From: Allopseudospirillum japonicum
Lineage (GTDB): Bacteria; Pseudomonadota; Gammaproteobacteria; Pseudomonadales; Halomonadaceae
DNA length: 64,000 bases
Assembly: GCF_900108915.1 (NCBI RefSeq)
Contig: NZ_FNYH01000004.1
Location: 1 to 64,000 of the forward strand
Direction: 5' to 3'
A program made the position numbers and the translations under genes. Below, in pieces: positions 1,557 through 37,222 of this stretch. The notes beneath the pieces are model-generated. The model made no database searches and was not told the origin of the DNA. It saw nothing but the letters and a program-made list of their open reading frames with translations. Position 1 is the stretch's first letter. Each line of letters begins with the position of its first letter.

Positions 1557-2273
1557 ATGTACTCGCAAGATGAAGAAGAAACCCAAAGCACAGCAGAAGA
1601 TGGTGCTCATTGGATTTCCGTAAGTGATTTAATGGCAGCACTTATGATGGTGTTTTTATTATTATCTGTTATTTTTATGGTGATTGTGCAAAAAGAATCA
1701 CAAAAAATAAAGGAAGTGGCTGAGCTTTATATTGATCTTCGTGAGAATCTGTATCAAGATTTATTGAAAGAGTTTGAAAAAGATTTGCCTCGTTGGGGTG
1801 CTGAATTAAAGAAAGATCTATCCTTACAGTTTTACAATACAGATATTTTATTTGAAGTTGGCTCAGCAGAGCTTAAATCTAGTTTTAAATTAATATTACA
1901 GGATTTTTTTCCACGTTATACAAAAATAATTACCTCAGATGCTTATCGTAACGAAATTGCTGAAGTACGTATTGAAGGTCATACATCAAGTGATTGGACT
2001 AATGCTGTTAATGAAGACGAAGCCTATATTAATAATATGCGTTTATCACAAGCACGTACACGTTCTACATTAGCTTATTTATTAAGTTTGCAAGCCGTAT
2101 TTAATCAAAAAATTTGGTTATTAGACCATGTAACTGCAAATGGACTTTCTTCTTCTAAGCTCATCTTGGATACTCAGGGACAAGAAGATTCTGAACGTTC
2201 ACGCCGAGTAGAATTTCGTTTGCGTACAGATGCTGATGCGAGGATACGTGCTATTTTGGAACGAGGGACTTAA
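1557..2273 (+). CDS. ZorB-like OmpA/MotB-domain stator protein
   Basis: A 238-residue protein with a short cytoplasmic N-terminus, one membrane helix (about 25-46) and a C-terminal OmpA-like peptidoglycan-binding domain. The segment before and into the helix, WISVSDLMAALMM, carries an aspartate (D24) at the place of the proton-carrying Asp of MotB and ZorB. The periplasmic part has the OmpA signatures EGHTSSDW (about 142-149) and SRRVEFRL near the end. Length and layout match ZorB. The stop codon is directly followed by the ATG of the third gene, so the three are translated as one unit. Membrane complex formation with the upstream ZorA-like protein is inferred from the families. Confidence 0.78.
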   Translation: MYSQDEEETQSTAEDGAHWISVSDLMAALMMVFLLLSVIFMVIVQKESQKIKEVAELYIDLRENLYQDLLKEFEKDLPRWGAELKKDLSLQFYNTDILFEVGSAELKSSFKLILQDFFPRYTKIITSDAYRNEIAEVRIEGHTSSDWTNAVNEDEAYINNMRLSQARTRSTLAYLLSLQAVFNQKIWLLDHVTANGLSSSKLILDTQGQEDSERSRRVEFRLRTDADARIRAILERGT

Positions 2274-2864
2274 ATGAAATTACCTAATTTCTTGGAGGAT
2301 GAAGCTTTTAATCAGCTGAGGAAAAAGATGGGAACCTCTAGGTATGGTTATTTTAAGCTCTTTAACCCAAAGTATCATCTGACTGGTCAAGAAAGGTCTT
2401 TATTAGAATTACAGGGGAAGAAAGTCTCAATTAGAAATTTGGTGCCTTTGGCAGATTCTACTTGGGCATTTAAAAATACTAGAGTGATTTTATACCTTCC
2501 AGAATCATCTGTTTACCATTTAGCACAGTGTCAAAAATTAAAACAACATGAATATGTTTATATTAGCACTAAACGCGAAGGTGATTTGCCTTTGATAAAA
2601 CAAGAGACACGTACAGCATCATTGAAAATATGTGAACACTGTTTACAAGTTTTAGGTTATAAAGGTTTCGATTTGAGAAAAAATAGAAAAGTGGCTTATA
2701 GCCAGAAAATATTACAAGAATTCTCGCGTAGTGAGTTTTTTCGTTTGTATCGTCAATACCCTATCAATATAGAAGCTTTACTAGAGAAGCAGGCTAATAT
2801 AACTCAGAATTTAACACCTGTATTGAGCCAACGTCAACACAGGCGTTTAAAAAATACGTTTTAA
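2274..2864 (+). CDS. Unrecognised small cysteine protein linked to the ZorAB-like pair
   Basis: I do not recognise this 196-residue protein. It starts on the base after the stop of the ZorB-like gene, so it almost certainly belongs to the same operon. Its middle holds H82 and C86 (YHLAQC) and a CxxC pair at C120 and C123 ([15 protein letters not shown]), which could form a single zinc site. No membrane helix or signal peptide is visible, and the C-terminus is basic and polar. It does not resemble the known Zorya effectors ZorC, ZorD (Snf2-type helicase) or ZorE (HNH nuclease), as far as I can recall their motifs. Its stop TAA shares four bases with the convergent cysN stop. A role as effector or adaptor is a guess. 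Confidence 0.7.
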
Positions 2865-4282
2865 CTTTTAATCAGTTGGCTAATATCTTTAGCTTGCCAA
2901 TGGGGGAAGTGTTTACGGATAAGTGCATTAAGTTCTAGTTCAAAGCTGGAATGGCTTGTCTCTTCTTGTAATTTATCTAGATTCTGAGTAATCATACCAG
3001 CTGCTAGCGTCAAGTTAGAGAGACGATCAATGAGAATAAAACTTCCCGTGTGTGGGCAAGCTTCATAGGTATCAAAAGCAACAGGCATTGTTAATTCTAA
3101 TCGACATAAAGCAATACCATTGAGAGATAAGTGATCGCTGGCTTCTTTTGCTAGGGTGTTAATATCTACTTGATAGTCAATATGGGTTACATAAGCAGAA
3201 GTAAACTGTGTACCTAACTTAATATGATATTGCTTGCCAATTTGTAAGGGGGTTTCATGCATCCATACAAGGTGTGCCTGCAGGTGCTGAGATAAATGAG
3301 TGTCTTGCTCAGCAGCAAGAATTAAATCCCCTCGGGAAATATCTATCTCATCATTTAATGTTAGGGTAATCGCTTGACCTGCATAAGCTGTTTCTAGCTC
3401 ACCTTCATAAGTAATAATAGATTTAATTGTAGACGTTTTTCCTGAAGGTAACACTTTGATTTTCTGGCCAACATTGAGGCTTCCGGAAGCTAGAGTACCA
3501 CAGTAGCCACGGAAATTTAAATGTGGTCGATTAACATACTGTACGGGGAAACGCACTGCATCATAGTTGATATCTTTAGCAATTTCGACTTCTTCGAGCC
3601 AAGACATTAGGGTGTTACCTTGATACCAAGGCATATGCGCGCTTGGGTGAACGACGTTATCACCTGCTAGGGCAGAAATAGGTACAAATTGAATATCTTG
3701 TACACCTAAATCTTGAGCAAAAGTTAAATAATCTGTTTTAATTTGCGCAAAGGTTTGTTCACTGTAATCAACTAAATCCATTTTGTTAATGGCAATCACA
3801 AAGTGTTTAATGCCTAGTAGGGAACAAATGAAACTATGGCGTCTAGTTTGCGTTTGCACACCGTAACGTGCATCAATTAATAAGATAGCCAATTGTGCGG
3901 TTGAGGCACCTGTAGCCATATTGCGAGTGTATTGCTCATGCCCTGGAGTATCTGCAATAATAAATTTACGCTTATCTGTAGAAAAATAGCGATAAGCAAC
4001 ATCAATGGTAATACCTTGTTCGCGTTCTGATTGGAGTCCATCAACCAGTAAGGCTAAATCAGGTGCTTCGCCTGTGGTACCAACCTTTTTACTGTCTGCA
4101 GTGACTGCTGCAAGTTGATCTTCATAGATCATTTTAGAATCATGTAATAAGCGCCCGATCAGGGTTGATTTGCCATCATCGACACTGCCACAAGTAATAA
4201 AACGTAATAAGTCTTTTTGCTCATGTTGCTGCAAATAAGCTTGGATAGTCTCAGGCGTAATTTGAGTGCTTGAAGTATGCAT
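2861..4282 (-). CDS. cysN: Sulfate adenylyltransferase subunit 1 (GTPase)
   Basis: CysN is the regulatory GTPase of ATP sulfurylase; it couples GTP hydrolysis to adenylyl sulfate formation by CysD in the cytoplasm. The 473-residue product has the translation-factor GTPase motifs in order: GSVDDGKST (residues 32-40), DTPGH (about 111-115) and NKMD (about 166-169), followed by two beta-barrel domains of the EF-Tu type. The length is that of free-standing CysN; there is no fused APS kinase (CysC). It lies 24 bases downstream of cysD. No terminator is visible at its end, and its stop overlaps that of the convergent cysteine-protein gene. Confidence 0.96.
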
Positions 4283-5775: not shown

Positions 5776-7032
5776 TTAGTTCGCATACACAGGGAAACGC
5801 GCACACAAGGCAGAAGCTTGTGCTTTGACACGTTCAATGGTTTCTTCATTGTGAATATCGTCGAGAATATCACAAATCCAAGTGGCAAGTTCGCGACACT
5901 CTACTTCCGTGAATCCACGGGTTGTAACCGCAGGGGTACCAATGCGCAGACCTGAAGTGACAAAGGGGCTTTGTGGATCATTTGGCACAGCATTTTTGTT
6001 CACTGTGATATGGGCACGACCCAGCGCTGCATCGGCATCCTTCCCTGTAATCCCTTGACGGATCAAAGAAAGCAAGAAGAGGTGATCATCTGTGCCTTGG
6101 GAAACCACATCATAACCACGGTCCATCATCACGCTGGCCATCGCACGCGCATTTTTCACTACTTGTGCTTGGTACGTTTTGAAGTCTTCACCCATGGCTT
6201 CTTTAAAACAAATGGCCTTTGCAGCAATCACATGCATTAAAGGACCGCCCTGCCCACCAGGGAAAACTGCAGAGTTGAGCTTTTTGTGTAGCTCAGGATC
6301 ATCTTTTGCCAAAATCAAACCGCCACGAGGGCCGCGTAAGGTTTTATGTGTGGTCGTGGTGACGACATCTGCATAAGGCATAGGTGAGGGATAAACACCC
6401 GCTGCCACCAGGCCGGCAATGTGTGCCATATCAACAAATAGATAAGCGCCGACTTGATCTGCAATCTCACGGAATTTTGCCCAATCAACAATCCGCGAGT
6501 AAGCAGAAAAACCAGCCAGAATCATTTTAGGCTGATGTTCTTTTGCTAAGCGTTCAACTTCGGCGTAATCAATTTCGCCGGTTTCAGGATTTAAACCGTA
6601 CTGAACAGCATGATAAATTTTGCCGGAGAAATTAGGTTTAGCACCATGCGTGAGGTGACCACCATCCGCAAGGCTCATCCCTAATACAGTATCACCTGGT
6701 TGTAAAAGTGCCATGTAAACTGCACTGTTGGCTTGTGAACCAGAGTGTGGTTGTACGTTGGCATAAGCCGCGCCAAATAATTCTTTTGCACGATCAATGG
6801 CTAATTGCTCCACCACATCGACGTGCTCACAGCCGCCATAGTAACGCTTGTAAGGATAACCTTCTGCGTATTTATTGGTCAGTACGCTACCTTGGGCTTG
6901 GAGGACACGTGGACTAGTGTAGTTTTCAGAGGCGATCAGCTCGATGTGATCTTCTTGACGTTGAGCTTCAGCTTCCATCGCTGCCCAAACCTCAGGATCA
7001 AAGTCAGCAACGCGCATATCAGGTGTAAACAT
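5776..7032 (-). CDS. glyA: Serine hydroxymethyltransferase
   Basis: GlyA is a cytoplasmic PLP enzyme that interconverts serine and glycine with transfer of a one-carbon unit to tetrahydrofolate. The 418-residue product is full length, with [12 protein letters not shown] near the N-terminus, the substrate and PLP segment PHSGSQAN, and the PLP-lysine motif [15 protein letters not shown]. It is monocistronic or nearly so, with a terminator just downstream, and is divergent from ettA across a ~260-base spacer. No riboswitch of the glycine type is visible in that spacer. Confidence 0.97.
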
Positions 7033-7298
7033 AAAAGCGGGCCTCGAATTACGGGGATAAAGATAAAAGCATCAGTCGCCAGATAAGTACTAGCGAAGCA
7101 AAGATAAAGATTCTTTATTCTACCCTACTCAAGTCGGCAAGGCATAATGAAAAGAAAGTGCAAATAACACGAGTTTTTTTCAACTTGCTAAGGTGCTCAC
7201 TGGCATTCCCTTGAGGAAATGTCTATGATCTGCGCCATCTATACCCTGAGCAAATAGGCTCTTTTGACCTTTGACCAAAATGATAAATGGGTGAACGC

Positions 7299-8960
7299 AT
7301 GGCTCAATATGTATTTACAATGAATCGTGTGGGCAAGGTGGTGCCCCCGAAACGTGAAATCTTAAAGGATATTTCCTTATCCTTCTTTCCAGGCGCAAAA
7401 ATTGGGGTTCTAGGCCTCAACGGTGCGGGTAAATCGACTTTATTACGCATTATGGCAGGCGTTGACCAAGAATATAATGGTGAAGCTCGCCCTATGTCAG
7501 GGATTAATATTGGCTATTTACCACAAGAACCTCAACTTGATCCGCAAAAACAAGTGCGTGAAATTGTTGAAGAAGCCGTTTCTGGCATTAAAGAAGCGCA
7601 AGCACGTTTAGATGAAGTGTACACAGCCTATGCAGATCCAGACGCAGATTTTGATGCCTTAGCCGCTGAACAGGCGCGTTTAGAAAACATTATTCAAGCG
7701 GCAGATGCGCACAACCTAGAACGCAAGTTAGAGGTTGCTGCAGAGGCATTACGCTTACCCCCTTGGGATGCGAAAGTAGAGCATTTATCGGGCGGGGAAA
7801 AACGCCGGGTTGCCCTGTGCCGTTTGTTACTTTCTAGCCCAGATATGCTGTTACTGGATGAGCCAACCAACCACTTGGATGCGGAATCTGTGGCTTGGTT
7901 AGAGCGCTTTCTGCATGAATATCCAGGCACTGTGGTCGCCATTACTCACGATCGTTACTTCTTGGATAATGTGGCGGGTTGGATTTTAGAGCTCGACCGT
8001 GGTCAAGGAATTCCTTGGCAAGGAAACTACTCGTCTTGGTTGGAGCAAAAAGAGCAGCGCTTAGAGCAAGAAGCTAAATCTGAAGTGGCACGTCAGAAAA
8101 CGATCAAGCAGGAGTTAGAATGGGTTCGCCAGAATCCGAAAGGACGTCAAGCAAAATCAAAAGCCCGCTTGAAGCAGTTTGAAGAATTGCAATCGCAAGA
8201 TTATCAAACACGTAATGAAACTAACGAAATTTATATTCCACCTGGCCCGCGTCTTGGCGATAAAGTGGTGGAGTTTAATCAAGTAAGTAAAAGTTTTGAT
8301 GGTCGTGTTCTGTTTGAAGATCTTTCTTTCAGTCTACCTAAAGGGGCGATTGTCGGGATTGTTGGGGGTAATGGTGCGGGTAAATCGACCCTGTTTAAAT
8401 TGATTGCAGGGGTTGAGCAGCCAGACCAAGGCCAAGTCGTGATTGGTGAAACCGTACAAATGGCTTTTGTAGATCAGTTACGTGATGGGCTTGATGGCAA
8501 CCAGAGTGTTTGGGAAGCTGTGTCCGAAGGCCAAGATATTTTGCGTATTGGCAGTTATGAAGTGCCTTCGCGTGCCTATGTTGGGCGTTTTAACTTCAAA
8601 GGCCAAGATCAGCAAAAACGTGTGGGAGAGCTTTCCGGTGGGGAGCGCGGCCGTTTGCATTTGGCCATGGTACTTAAACAAGCGGCTAACTTGTTGCTTT
8701 TGGATGAGCCTTCCAACGACTTGGATATTGAAACCTTGCGTGCTTTGGAAGAAGCTTTGTTAAGTTTCCCCGGTTGTGCCATGGTGATTTCGCACGATCG
8801 TTGGTTCCTTGATCGGATCGCGACCCACATTCTTGCCTATGAGGGAGATTCTAAAGTGGTGTTTTTCGAAGGTAACTACAGCGAATACGAAGAAGACCAC
8901 AAAAAGCGGGTGGGTGATGATACACCGCACCGCATTAAGTACAAGCGTATTGATGCTTAA
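7299..8960 (+). CDS. ettA: Energy-dependent translational throttle protein EttA
   Basis: EttA is a soluble ABC-F ATPase that binds the ribosomal E site and gates the first peptide bond according to the ATP/ADP ratio. The 553-residue product has two ABC domains with Walker A motifs GLNGAGKST and GGNGAGKST, two LSGGE signatures, and the linker/arm region between them; the C-terminus RIKYKRI matches E. coli EttA. The long reading frame starts at 7287, but the ATG at 7299 begins MAQYVFTMNRVGK, which aligns with E. coli EttA, and has GGGTGA upstream. A bidirectional terminator follows. Confidence 0.96.
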   Translation: MAQYVFTMNRVGKVVPPKREILKDISLSFFPGAKIGVLGLNGAGKSTLLRIMAGVDQEYNGEARPMSGINIGYLPQEPQLDPQKQVREIVEEAVSGIKEAQARLDEVYTAYADPDADFDALAAEQARLENIIQAADAHNLERKLEVAAEALRLPPWDAKVEHLSGGEKRRVALCRLLLSSPDMLLLDEPTNHLDAESVAWLERFLHEYPGTVVAITHDRYFLDNVAGWILELDRGQGIPWQGNYSSWLEQKEQRLEQEAKSEVARQKTIKQELEWVRQNPKGRQAKSKARLKQFEELQSQDYQTRNETNEIYIPPGPRLGDKVVEFNQVSKSFDGRVLFEDLSFSLPKGAIVGIVGGNGAGKSTLFKLIAGVEQPDQGQVVIGETVQMAFVDQLRDGLDGNQSVWEAVSEGQDILRIGSYEVPSRAYVGRFNFKGQDQQKRVGELSGGERGRLHLAMVLKQAANLLLLDEPSNDLDIETLRALEEALLSFPGCAMVISHDRWFLDRIATHILAYEGDSKVVFFEGNYSEYEEDHKKRVGDDTPHRIKYKRIDA

Positions 8961-34019: not shown

Positions 34020-35243
34020 TCAATATGATCTTTGATGCGCTTGCGGTAATTTGAAGGAAAACCACCAAGCGAACATTAACATCACCACAGAAGCCCATAA
34101 ACAAGCCTGCAAACCTGCGCTGGCCTGTCCACCTAATTGAAACATCCACCCAGATAATAAAGTGCCTAATAAGCGTCCTAACGCATTGGCCATATAATAA
34201 AAGCCAATATCTAAGGAAACGCCATCCTCGTTAGCATAACGCACAACGAAGTAGCTATGCAGGGAAGAATTGACTGCAAATACGGCACCGAAAATCAGCA
34301 AACCCCCGATGAGGATTTCTTCTGTATAGGCAGTTAGCTCTAACCCCAAAGCCATAAGTGCAGGAATTACAGTTAATACGCTAACCCAAAAAACAGCGGA
34401 ATGTTGAGTATTGTGTGCATCACGGGTGATTTTGGGGGCTAAAGCCTGCACCAGGCCATAGGCGATGATCCATAAGGCTAAAAAGCTGCCTGTTTGGCTT
34501 GGGTTCCAGCCGAGGCTTTGGGATAAAAACACAGGTAAGGCCACGACAAACCAAACATCACGGGCACCAAATAAAAATAAGCGTGCTGCTGAGAGTAAGT
34601 TAATCGCTGGGCTTTTAGAAAAGATGTCACGGAATTTGGGCTTATATTTGGCTTTGCCTAAATTTTGTTTCAGTCGTGCCAAACTCAACAGCCAGATGAA
34701 AGTTAACATCAAGGCCATTAAGGCAAGAGCACCTGTAAACCCCAAGGTCATTAATAAAAAACCACCCATGAAAAAGCCGACGCCTTTCAAGGTGTTTTTC
34801 GAACCCGTGAGCAAGGCAACCCATTGGTATAAGGTGCCTTGTGCGTGGGCAGGTACCAAGGATTTGATCGCGCTTTTAGCACTCATTTTATTTAAATCTT
34901 TGGCAATGCCTGACAGTGCCTGTGCCGCCATCACCCAAGGGACACTCAGCCAGCTTGCAGGTACGAGAAGTAAGGCTAAGGCAAGAATTTGCAACGCTAA
35001 GCCGATATTCATGGTGCGATTTAAGCCCCAATGCGCACCTAGCCAGCCTCCTACTAGGTTAGTGATCACACCAAAAATTTCATAAAACAGAAATAGCAAA
35101 GCAATGTCTAGTGGCGAGTACCCCAAGCTGTGAAAATGCAGCACTACCAGCATCCGTAAGGCACCATCAGTGAGGGTAAAGGCCCAATAATTGCCCGTGA
35201 TCACTAAATATTGGCGGATTTCAGGAGAAAGCTGGCTCAGCAT
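34020..35243 (-). CDS. arsJ: Organoarsenical efflux MFS transporter ArsJ
   Basis: A 407-residue major-facilitator protein with about twelve membrane helices. The start (ITGNYWAFTLTDGALRMLVVLHFHSLGYSP) and SGIAKDLNKMSAKSAIK are characteristic of ArsJ. ArsJ exports 1-arseno-3-phosphoglycerate, which the partner GAPDH makes from arsenate and glyceraldehyde-3-phosphate; the product decays outside and so arsenate leaves the cell. Its ATG directly follows the GAPDH stop (TAAATG), so the pair is translationally coupled. Last gene of the arsenic operon. Confidence 0.93.
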   Translation of the reverse strand: MLSQLSPEIRQYLVITGNYWAFTLTDGALRMLVVLHFHSLGYSPLDIALLFLFYEIFGVITNLVGGWLGAHWGLNRTMNIGLALQILALALLLVPASWLSVPWVMAAQALSGIAKDLNKMSAKSAIKSLVPAHAQGTLYQWVALLTGSKNTLKGVGFFMGGFLLMTLGFTGALALMALMLTFIWLLSLARLKQNLGKAKYKPKFRDIFSKSPAINLLSAARLFLFGARDVWFVVALPVFLSQSLGWNPSQTGSFLALWIIAYGLVQALAPKITRDAHNTQHSAVFWVSVLTVIPALMALGLELTAYTEEILIGGLLIFGAVFAVNSSLHSYFVVRYANEDGVSLDIGFYYMANALGRLLGTLLSGWMFQLGGQASAGLQACLWASVVMLMFAWWFSFKLPQAHQRSY

Positions 35244-36245
35244 TTAGGTGCGTCCTATTTTGAGGGCAAGTTCCGCAGTCCGGTTGGCATAGCCCCATTC
35301 GTTATCGTACCAGGCATAAATTTTCACTTGAGTACCATTGACGACCAGGGTTGATAGGGCGTCGATAATGCTGGAACGCGGATCGGTTTTATAGTCAATC
35401 GACACGAGCGGGCGTTCTTCGTACCCTAAAATGCCTTGTAACTCACCTTCCGCAGCGGCCTTAAGTAGGGCATTGACTTCCTTTGCGCTGGTAGCGCGTT
35501 GTACTTCAAAAACACAATCTGTGATGGAAGCATTCGCTAATGGAACTCGAATGGCATGGCCATTGAGCTTGCCTGTGAGCTCAGGAAAAATTTGTGCAAT
35601 CGCCGTGGCCGAACCTGTCGTGGTAGGAATTAAGCTCATACCGCAAGCACGTGCGCGGCGTAAATCTTTATGGGGTGCATCCAAAATGGTTTGGGTGTTG
35701 GTGATATCGTGAATTGTCGTGATGGTGCCATGATGAATCCCTAAGTGGGTTTGGATCACCTTGACGATAGGTGCTAAACAATTCGTGGTACAGGAAGCGG
35801 CAGTGACAATTCTGTGTTGTTGCGGATCATACAAATGATCATTGACACCAAGGACAATATTCAACACACCAGCTTCTTTGATGGGCGCTGTGACTAAGAC
35901 GCGCTTTACACCCTGGTCTAGATAGGTTTGTAATACGGCCTGGTTTTTCAGTTTGCCAGAGGCTTCAATGACCAGATCACAAGCTGACCAATCCGTTTCT
36001 GCTAGGTGTTGGTTCGCAGTGACAGTGATGGGGTGTCCTGCAATCAGTATGTGAGAGCCTTCGGCCTTAGCCTCGTGATGCCAACGTCCATGCACAGAAT
36101 CAAAATTGAGTAAGTGGGCTAAAGTAGCGGCATCTCCCGCTGGATCATTGATGTGCACTAGGTGAATGTCTGCTTGGTCATACAGGGCACGTAAGGTTAA
36201 ACGCCCCATGCGTCCAAATCCATTAATCCCAACTTTGATGGTCAT
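35244..36245 (-). CDS. ArsJ-associated glyceraldehyde-3-phosphate dehydrogenase
   Basis: A 333-residue GAPDH with NAD-binding [13 protein letters not shown], the catalytic Cys in [11 protein letters not shown] and the C-terminal [11 protein letters not shown]. Its place between an ArsC-ArsR gene and arsJ marks it as the dedicated GAPDH that forms 1-arseno-3-phosphoglycerate. The frame is open upstream to 36416, but the ATG at 36245 has AAGGAG and matches the family start. The upstream part of that frame runs across a broken acr3 gene and is not coding. Confidence 0.92.
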
Positions 36246-36295
36246 TTTAGGCTCCTTTGATCGCAATGTTTGAGAGCAGAGTATGTATGGATTAA

Positions 36296-36447
36296 CTAGT
36301 GATTGGGGAACCCGTCTTGTGTGTGTTTGGCTAAGGCGACTAATGAGAGCATCACAGGAACCTCCACCAAAACACCAACCACAGTCGCTAAGGCCGCGCC
36401 TGCATGGAAAGCACATGGTGTGTCAGATAGCGCTCAAAGATCCCCAT
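36296..36447 (-). pseudogene. acr3: acr3 arsenite efflux pump, internally deleted remnant
   Basis: The gap between the ArsC-ArsR gene and GAPDH holds both ends of an ACR3-type arsenite permease. An ATG at 36447 opens MGIFERYLT, the usual ACR3 N-terminus, and then drops out of frame. Shortly after, another frame reads [20 protein letters not shown] and stops at TAG (36296-36298), which is the ACR3 C-terminal helix. The remnant is 152 bases where the gene is normally ~1050, so about 900 bases are missing and the join is out of frame. A functional pump cannot be made. Confidence 0.82.
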
Positions 36448-36466
36448 ATTGCATTCCTTAAACAGA

Positions 36467-37222
36467 TCAACACTTCGAAGGGCGATTGTGCATTGCTTGT
36501 AAACGTGCGCAAGCTTGGGTGAGTAAAGCAGGGTTATGTTGGCGTGTTTGCTGTAATACCTCCCGCATCCAGTCATTTAATAGCGGGTGTAAACGATAGA
36601 AGACCCACTGACCTTGACGACGATCTAATAATAAGCCGGCTTTACGTAACTGACTTAAATGACGAGAAATTTTGGGCTGCAACTGGTCTAATGCTTCCAT
36701 TAGTTCACATACACATAACTCACCTTCTTGCTCAATCAGTAATAGGCTCAATAGGCGGGTTTCATCGGCTAACAGCTTATAAAAATCAACGGCTTGTAGT
36801 GGTTTTATTGCTGAATCTACGCTTTTTTCATTCACCATAATAAACAAGCGAATGCGGTCACTTATTTCTTGCAAGATGCGTGCGAAAGCTTTGGGATCTG
36901 TACTAGTTTTAGGGTCAGGAAAATCCCATGCCATGGTGACGCCTGTATGAGGCCAATAACGGCAGTCTTGATGGGCTTTCTCGCAGAGGCTAATCACATA
37001 ATCAAAATGCTGATCTTGGTAATCCTTAACGTTTTTTGCATATGAATCTTGCGCAGGTAAACCAAAGGCTTGGATTGCCGCTAAGCTTCTTGGATCCACC
37101 GGCTCAGGTTCAGTACCTGCGCTATGCACTTCAAACTGGTCACCCGCATAATGCCTTAATAAAGCTTCAGCCATGATGGAACGTGCGGAATTTGCCGAAC
37201 ACAAAAAAAGTACGCGTTTCAC
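36467..37222 (-). CDS. ArsC-ArsR fusion: arsenate reductase and arsenite-responsive repressor
   Basis: A 251-residue two-domain protein. Residues 1-~135 form a low-molecular-weight-phosphatase arsenate reductase of the thioredoxin-linked type: the CX5R loop is C8-R14 and C80 and C87 have the spacing of the Bacillus-type Cys triad. Residues ~140-240 form an ArsR winged-helix domain with the As(III) site ELCVCEL (C170, C172) and recognition helix KISRHLSQLRKAG. One protein thus reduces arsenate and senses arsenite. It is the first gene of the arsenic operon and probably represses it. Confidence 0.92.
   Translation of the reverse strand: MKRVLFLCSANSARSIMAEALLRHYAGDQFEVHSAGTEPEPVDPRSLAAIQAFGLPAQDSYAKNVKDYQDQHFDYVISLCEKAHQDCRYWPHTGVTMAWDFPDPKTSTDPKAFARILQEISDRIRLFIMVNEKSVDSAIKPLQAVDFYKLLADETRLLSLLLIEQEGELCVCELMEALDQLQPKISRHLSQLRKAGLLLDRRQGQWVFYRLHPLLNDWMREVLQQTRQHNPALLTQACARLQAMHNRPSKC

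Follow-up and report, generated by a model that had tools for sequence, protein, structure and literature searches.

A remnant of the arsenite pump gene acr3, very probably left by an internal deletion, in the arsCR-gapdh-arsJ operon of Allopseudospirillum japonicum

Introduction

The window (the whole stretch of 64,000 bases of Allopseudospirillum japonicum DNA analysed here) contains an operon in which a gene for an ArsC-ArsR fusion protein is separated from gapdh and arsJ by pieces of acr3, a gene for an As(III) pump. ACR3 transporters have ten membrane helices with a conserved cysteine. The locus raises two questions, namely what has become of acr3, and why the cell should keep an arsenate reductase domain whose toxic product has no recognised exit.

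Results

The features of the operon are as follows, all on the minus strand.

36296..36447, minus strand: acr3 pseudogene with both gene ends kept and the interior lost, from profile matches and alignment with relatives
36421..36447, minus strand: first nine acr3 codons (MGIFERYLT), with a Shine-Dalgarno-like AAGGA at 36455-36459
36388..36447, minus strand: mini-ORF of 19 codons plus stop resulting from the deletion, contained in a longer open frame (36388-36576)
36401..36420, minus strand: join region, a clean match to neither end of intact acr3, with invariant W, F, G, L and S altered
36296..36400, minus strand: last 34 acr3 codons plus stop, with 19 of 20 invariant columns retained (exception Asn to Lys)
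36467..37222, minus strand: arsC-arsR fusion gene, coding for an arsenate reductase domain of the low-molecular-weight-phosphatase type (C8, R14, C80, C87, D103) and ArsR (C170, C172)
35244..36245, minus strand: gene for ArsJ-associated glyceraldehyde-3-phosphate dehydrogenase (NF033735, 571.8 bits, cut-off 450)
34020..35243, minus strand: arsJ, coding for an organoarsenical efflux MFS permease (NF033734, 598.2 bits, cut-off 400)

A sequence-only reading of the window had placed the start of an ACR3 pump and its last helix within 152 bases in different frames, and both were located here, from 36447 to 36296. The ATG of the remnant (36447) lies 19 bp past the stop of the arsC-arsR fusion gene (37222-36467). 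The C-terminal piece, read from 36400 to 36296 in a frame other than that of the ATG piece, matches positions 301-327 of the NCBIfam acr3 profile TIGR00832 (E = 1.5e-7, 31.1 bits; E = 2.4e-6 in the whole-genome scan), its score lying below the curated cut-off of 282.8 bits. A second profile, which represents 55 intact Acr3 proteins of relatives (matches of the Acr3 query of locus L017), gives the piece an E-value of 7.9e-12; in the reversed-sequence control of this profile, 105,201 ORFs gave two matches with E < 10 and none with E < 1. The nine residues of the N-terminal piece are too short for the profile and were instead scored as an identity of at least seven in nine, a match found a single time in the 64 kb window and not at all in 1.93 Mb of reversed sequence. 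These controls rule out a chance origin of the nine-residue start, and likewise of the C-terminal piece. No PDB entry matched the 36-residue remnant.

The surviving ends are therefore homologous to ACR3 and are located at the acr3 position of the operon. Compared with intact members of the ACR3 family of arsenite efflux transporters (TIGR00832), to which both gene ends match, the remnant lacks about 290 of 340 codons, its ends are out of frame and, without the interior that would hold the ten helices and the conserved cysteine, it is no transporter. The acr3 copy at this locus is, as judged from its sequence, dead, and it is very probably a pseudogene formed when an internal segment of roughly 0.87 kb was deleted from the acr3 of an arsCR-acr3-gapdh-arsJ operon.

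Since the intact Acr3 proteins of relatives have 336-359 residues (median 340), the loss comes to 859-928 bp (median approximately 871), in agreement with the 900 or so bases that had been suggested earlier. In an alignment with the intact acr3 genes of relatives, which had been proposed as a check, both ends match, while the join of approximately 20 bp cleanly matches neither. The 19 columns retained in the C-terminal piece do not vary in the 55 intact proteins. Close to the join, all four invariant columns (F, G, L and S, each in 55/55 intact proteins) differ in the remnant, and a Trp of the N-terminal side that is present in 48 of the 48 readable starts (of 55) has become a His. Changes at invariant columns beside the join indicate that it gained filler bases or decayed after the event, and they have blurred the exact end points of the deletion and any microhomology.

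These changes also bear on the possibility that a full acr3 is present and that its middle was skipped during assembly. A draft genome of 30 contigs leaves room for such an error; however, the join is inside a contig of 203,771 bases, an intact Acr3 query matches only the place of the remnant with no loose middle piece in the genome, and the altered invariant residues include W (48/48) together with F, G, L, S and N (55/55). As a clean skip would not produce changes at invariant sites, an assembly slip is unlikely, and a complete acr3 hidden behind it is highly improbable.

The arsC-arsR, gapdh and arsJ genes have open frames and family matches. ArsJ and an adjacent ArsJ-associated GAPDH, the two sequence hallmarks of the GAPDH-ArsJ arsenate efflux system, are both present with scores above the curated cut-offs, and the pair is predicted to provide arsenate resistance by export of an arsenate adduct or of arsenate. 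The proposal that As(III) export by ACR3 was given up at this locus while the ArsJ route is intact is borne out to this extent, the acr3 being dead and its neighbours open and matched to their families. The GAPDH frame is open through the remnant to an ATG at 36416 (35244-36416, 390 aa), with the family model fitting from 36245, and a gene caller could therefore overextend GAPDH. Scans for promoters and terminators between 36100 and 37500 gave no more than was found in shuffled sequence. The best matches of arsJ in this operon (34020-37222) are at 73-76% in four other families of the same order (f37, f40, f44 and f41), compared with 63-70% in its own family (f1), a pattern suggestive of horizontal acquisition of the operon.

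The genome has 2,744,234 bases and is 99.24% complete. A search of it for another acr3 or arsB, also proposed with the first reading, found neither, the control for arsB being weak. No second acr3 scored above the cut-off of TIGR00832 genome-wide, and a search with the whole Acr3 protein found no loose acr3 piece. For arsB there was no match to PF02040 in the genome, nor in the E. coli control genome, which makes this a weak control, as E. coli K-12 carries arsB. The full ArsB protein of another genome (G313) gave no match in a search run without a positive control. The ArsP_1 permease was not found in the genome, the aquaporin family PF00230 gave only matches below cut-off, and the best match to the ArsM model NF008823 genome-wide had 63.7 bits (cut-off 263). 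A weakly acr3-like gene on contig C25 was rejected as a replacement, being of the bile-acid:sodium-symporter type with TIGR00841 as its best match (below its cut-off). The loss of acr3 thus seems, from these searches, to extend beyond this locus to the whole genome, and the remnant itself shows a true loss rather than an ancestral absence; on the tree described below, the window is placed among operons of which most have an intact acr3.

For comparison with related operons, loci were collected by their ArsJ and ArsCR proteins, giving 181 sequences: the window, 100 loci (L065-L164) and 80 loci (L166-L245). The 100 comprise 98 ArsJ places hand-picked mostly, though not strictly, from the top of the list, and two genomes with acr3 fragments (G082 and G044); the 80 are the kept relatives of the window's ArsCR. 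Sequences without one of the genes and five duplicates were dropped, which left 124 distinct operons with ArsR, GAPDH and ArsJ (>300 aa matched), a non-random sample. With acr3 scored between arsR and gapdh, 44 of these operons have an intact gene, two a frameshifted gene and four a stub (the window, L065, L116 and L167), and 74 have none, a class that includes operons possibly never having had acr3 and several with an intact acr3 nearby, mostly on the other strand. The corresponding counts among the 49 operons with fused ArsCR are 23, two, three and 21. The order arsCR, acr3, gapdh, arsJ is found in Oceanospirillum maris (L085), Haliea (L087), Zobellella (L089), Neptunomonas (L090), Marinobacter (L091) and Marinobacterium (L092), with an extra 750-770 bp or so between arsCR and acr3 in L085, L089 and L090.

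A tree of GAPDH and ArsJ was made for 61 of the 124 operons (the 49 fused and 12 hand-chosen unfused). On it, the distribution of intact acr3 requires 14 changes, at least eight of them being forced by well-supported branches, with gains and losses undistinguished. The window falls within a group of 14 operons (SH-aLRT 98), 11 with intact acr3, two with stubs (the window and L065) and one with none; its branch is long (0.43) and its exact neighbour in the tree is therefore not fixed. Judging from this tree, acr3 has been gained or lost repeatedly in this type of operon and its loss there is ordinary. As a pseudogene the remnant is unremarkable, and it lies in a kind of operon that often has no acr3.

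The other remnants, in arsJ operons (L065, L116 and L167/L125) and outside them (L084 and L083), are likewise truncated or internally deleted acr3 genes. The three stubs in arsJ operons other than the window's have modest scores with the Acr3 profile (E = 0.0005 for L065, 0.0057 for L167/L125 and 0.037 for L116) and were also read by eye. Approximately the first 19 residues are kept in L065; in L125/L167 approximately the first 25 are joined to the last nine (read by eye), and L116 has C-terminal pieces. As their end points differ, the remnant of the window and these others represent separate events. L168 was rejected as a stub, being a near-complete acr3 with a frameshift. In L115 and L157 acr3 is split by frameshifts; L115 and L168 were not placed among the stubs, and L157, a locus without arsJ, is outside the 124-operon count.

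The remnants of L084 (2683-2969) and L083 (4950-5259), both in loci other than arsJ operons, are internally deleted acr3 genes. One adjoins a stand-alone arsC-like gene and the other is on a 6,974-base contig of G082, the genome of L083, which has an intact acr3 elsewhere. In L065 (approximately 2224-3896) and L116 (approximately 6958-8222), which are distant arsCR-gapdh-arsJ operons, genes for an ArsP_1 permease (PF03773) and a small thioredoxin-like protein (by eye) adjoin the acr3 stub, the pair being positioned as if it were a pump replacement. In L098, L108 and L183 a dual-specificity-phosphatase-like gene (the family scan covering L098 only) occupies the acr3 position between arsCR and gapdh, and it is possibly comparable to VarH of the Vibrio cholerae var operon.

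The ArsC domain of the window's fusion protein has the CX5R loop and two further cysteines of thioredoxin-type arsenate reductases (C8-R14, C80 and C87). It matches solved arsenate reductases (e.g., 1jl3, E = 2.4e-14), the best match being 8p5n, a 'low molecular weight phosphatase family protein'. Its scores are below the equivalog cut-offs of TIGR02691 (66.8 vs 174.3 bits), PRK13530 (73.1 vs 215) and TIGR02689 (60.4 vs 157.6), and its arsenate reductase activity is for this reason a prediction. The ArsR part has the ELCVC-type pair (C170 and C172) of As(III)-responsive regulators and exceeds the cut-offs of NF033788 (84 vs 55 bits) and NF007528 (112.3 vs 97 bits).

All seven ArsC and ArsR residues are present in each of the fused operons with intact acr3 (23/23) or frameshifted acr3 (2/2), in 21 of the 24 without intact acr3, and in the six fused loci outside the operon count (6/6). 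Three loci deviate: C87 is Tyr in L116, the ArsR residue C172 is Tyr in L185, and in L225 D103 is Ala and both cysteines of ArsR are changed. The genome of L225 (G069), whose operon has no acr3, holds a below-cut-off acr3 match that is missing its first third (positions 100-327).

Whole genomes were searched for 29 operons without intact acr3 (G044 being included for its remnant); completeness is given for four of the 29, and absence is firm in these four only. An acr3 above cut-off was found elsewhere in G407 and G413 and arsB in five genomes (G313 and G391-G394), with neither found in 22. Fourteen of the 29 have fused ArsCR (the window, G238, G313 and G390-G400): none has an acr3 above cut-off, five have arsB and nine have neither. 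Sorted by genome, the 24 fused operons without intact acr3 comprise eight with another acr3 (L166, L173, L180, L185, L193, L194, L196 and L234), five with arsB, three that are unclear (L183, L188 and L225) and eight with neither; the ninth fused genome with neither is that of L117, a locus that does not count among the 24 as its ArsJ is cut. Of these nine genomes, in which searches gave no acr3 and no arsB, eight retain all five ArsC residues and all nine retain the ArsR cysteine pair.

ArsC has diverged faster than expected from ArsR in L117 (z = -2.8), L119 (z = -3.1) and L225 (z = -2.1), with no such drift in the pump-less L065, L098 and L108 (z = 1.5, 1.5 and 1.1). The value of the window is -0.5 (mean of acr3-bearing operons 0.85, sd 0.85), which is compatible with some relaxation. 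The catalytic residues are thus mostly held, and the rest of the ArsC domain may be loosening in some lineages.

Discussion

Arsenate resistance in this organism would now be provided by GAPDH and ArsJ alone, and the deletion of acr3 may have been tolerated because this pair, according to published work on relatives, can confer arsenate resistance where no As(III) pump is present. The ends of acr3 would have stayed because signals of the adjoining genes had to stay. As for the ArsC domain, it is possible that it is kept for making the As(III) signal sensed by ArsR: the fused ArsC would turn a little arsenate into As(III), so that arsenate would still induce gapdh-arsJ. A more tentative suggestion is that after loss of the pump the ArsC-ArsR fusion acts as a self-contained arsenate sensor, with As(III) made on the spot switching on the ArsJ route. 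The residues held in the nine pump-less genomes speak for a sensor. Against it, ArsC is fast-drifting in two of the nine (L117 and L119) and L116 is without one ArsC cysteine; it is because of this drift, and because just nine fused genomes were found to lack both acr3 and arsB, that the self-contained sensor is put forward with such reserve.

About as likely as a sensor is an ArsC domain without a present role, a passenger held by its fusion to ArsR that will decay in time. As ArsC and ArsR form one protein, stops and frameshifts in ArsC would be selected against whatever ArsC does. The faster divergence of ArsC in L117, L119 and L225, to a small degree seen in the window too, is in keeping with a passenger, as are the cysteine gone from L116 and the precedent of V. 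cholerae, for which the available part of the published account describes an inactive ArsC that is kept while ArsB is absent (PMC9601151). However, a passenger would not readily account for the five ArsC residues held in eight of the nine genomes.

It is rather unlikely that ArsC still detoxifies, with the As(III) it makes leaving by an unrecognised exporter or channel. Sinorhizobium reportedly uses the channel AqpS without a pump, and the ArsC residues of the window are intact; on the other hand, the genome yielded no arsB, ArsP_1 or second acr3, and its PF00230 and NF008823 matches are below cut-off. Highly improbable is a use for the 19-codon stub itself, for instance as a leader peptide coupling translation to gapdh, since, even though its Shine-Dalgarno-like sequence and ATG persist and L065 likewise retains an N-terminal stub directly ahead of gapdh, gapdh has its own AAGGAG and begins 50 bp past the stub, the retained end varies (the N-terminal one in L065 and both in L125 and the window, with C-terminal pieces left in L116), and 74 of the 124 operons have no trace of acr3 at this place.

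Arsenate resistance by arsR-gapdh-arsJ is known from Pseudomonas aeruginosa DK2, from the var operon of V. cholerae (PMC9601151) and, as mfs1-mfs2-gapdh, from Halomonas GFAJ-1 (PMC5930303); as far as the available parts of these sources go, the window shares with them the occurrence of gapdh and arsJ together in an operon. V. cholerae is like the window in having ArsR control and no As(III) pump. The accessible sections on that organism describe an absence of ArsB, an inactive ArsC and altered As(III)-site residues in ArsR, with an operon that functions without an As(III) pump, and report that replacement of the inactive arsC by that of E. coli inhibits growth unless E. coli ArsB is co-expressed (PMC9601151). 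The window differs in its fused ArsC with intact catalytic cysteines, its intact ArsR cysteines and the acr3 remnant within the operon. Halomonas GFAJ-1 has, according to the part of its description available, a GAPDH-ArsJ pair, no arsenate reductase genes and an acr3 operon (PMC5930303), whereas the window has an ArsC domain fused to ArsR and acr3 only as a remnant. In a 2015 survey, again as represented by its available portion, 35 MFS transporters always adjoin ArsB or ACR3 (PMC4435449); in contrast, ACR3 is often absent beside ArsJ in the operons collected here, which are a non-random sample. No description of acr3 stubs in arsJ operons, or of a sensor role of an ArsC-ArsR fusion, was found in a non-exhaustive search of the literature covering available parts of sources that include PMC5930303, PMC9601151, PMC6947025 and PMC4435449.

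What sets this operon apart is that its ArsC-ArsR fusion keeps both the catalytic and the arsenite-sensing cysteines in a genome in which no As(III) pump was found. The operon appears to have been caught after a switch from reducing arsenate and pumping out As(III) to the ArsJ route. If the fusion does serve as a sensor, the repeated loss of acr3 in such operons would mean that the pump was lost while the generator of the signal was retained.
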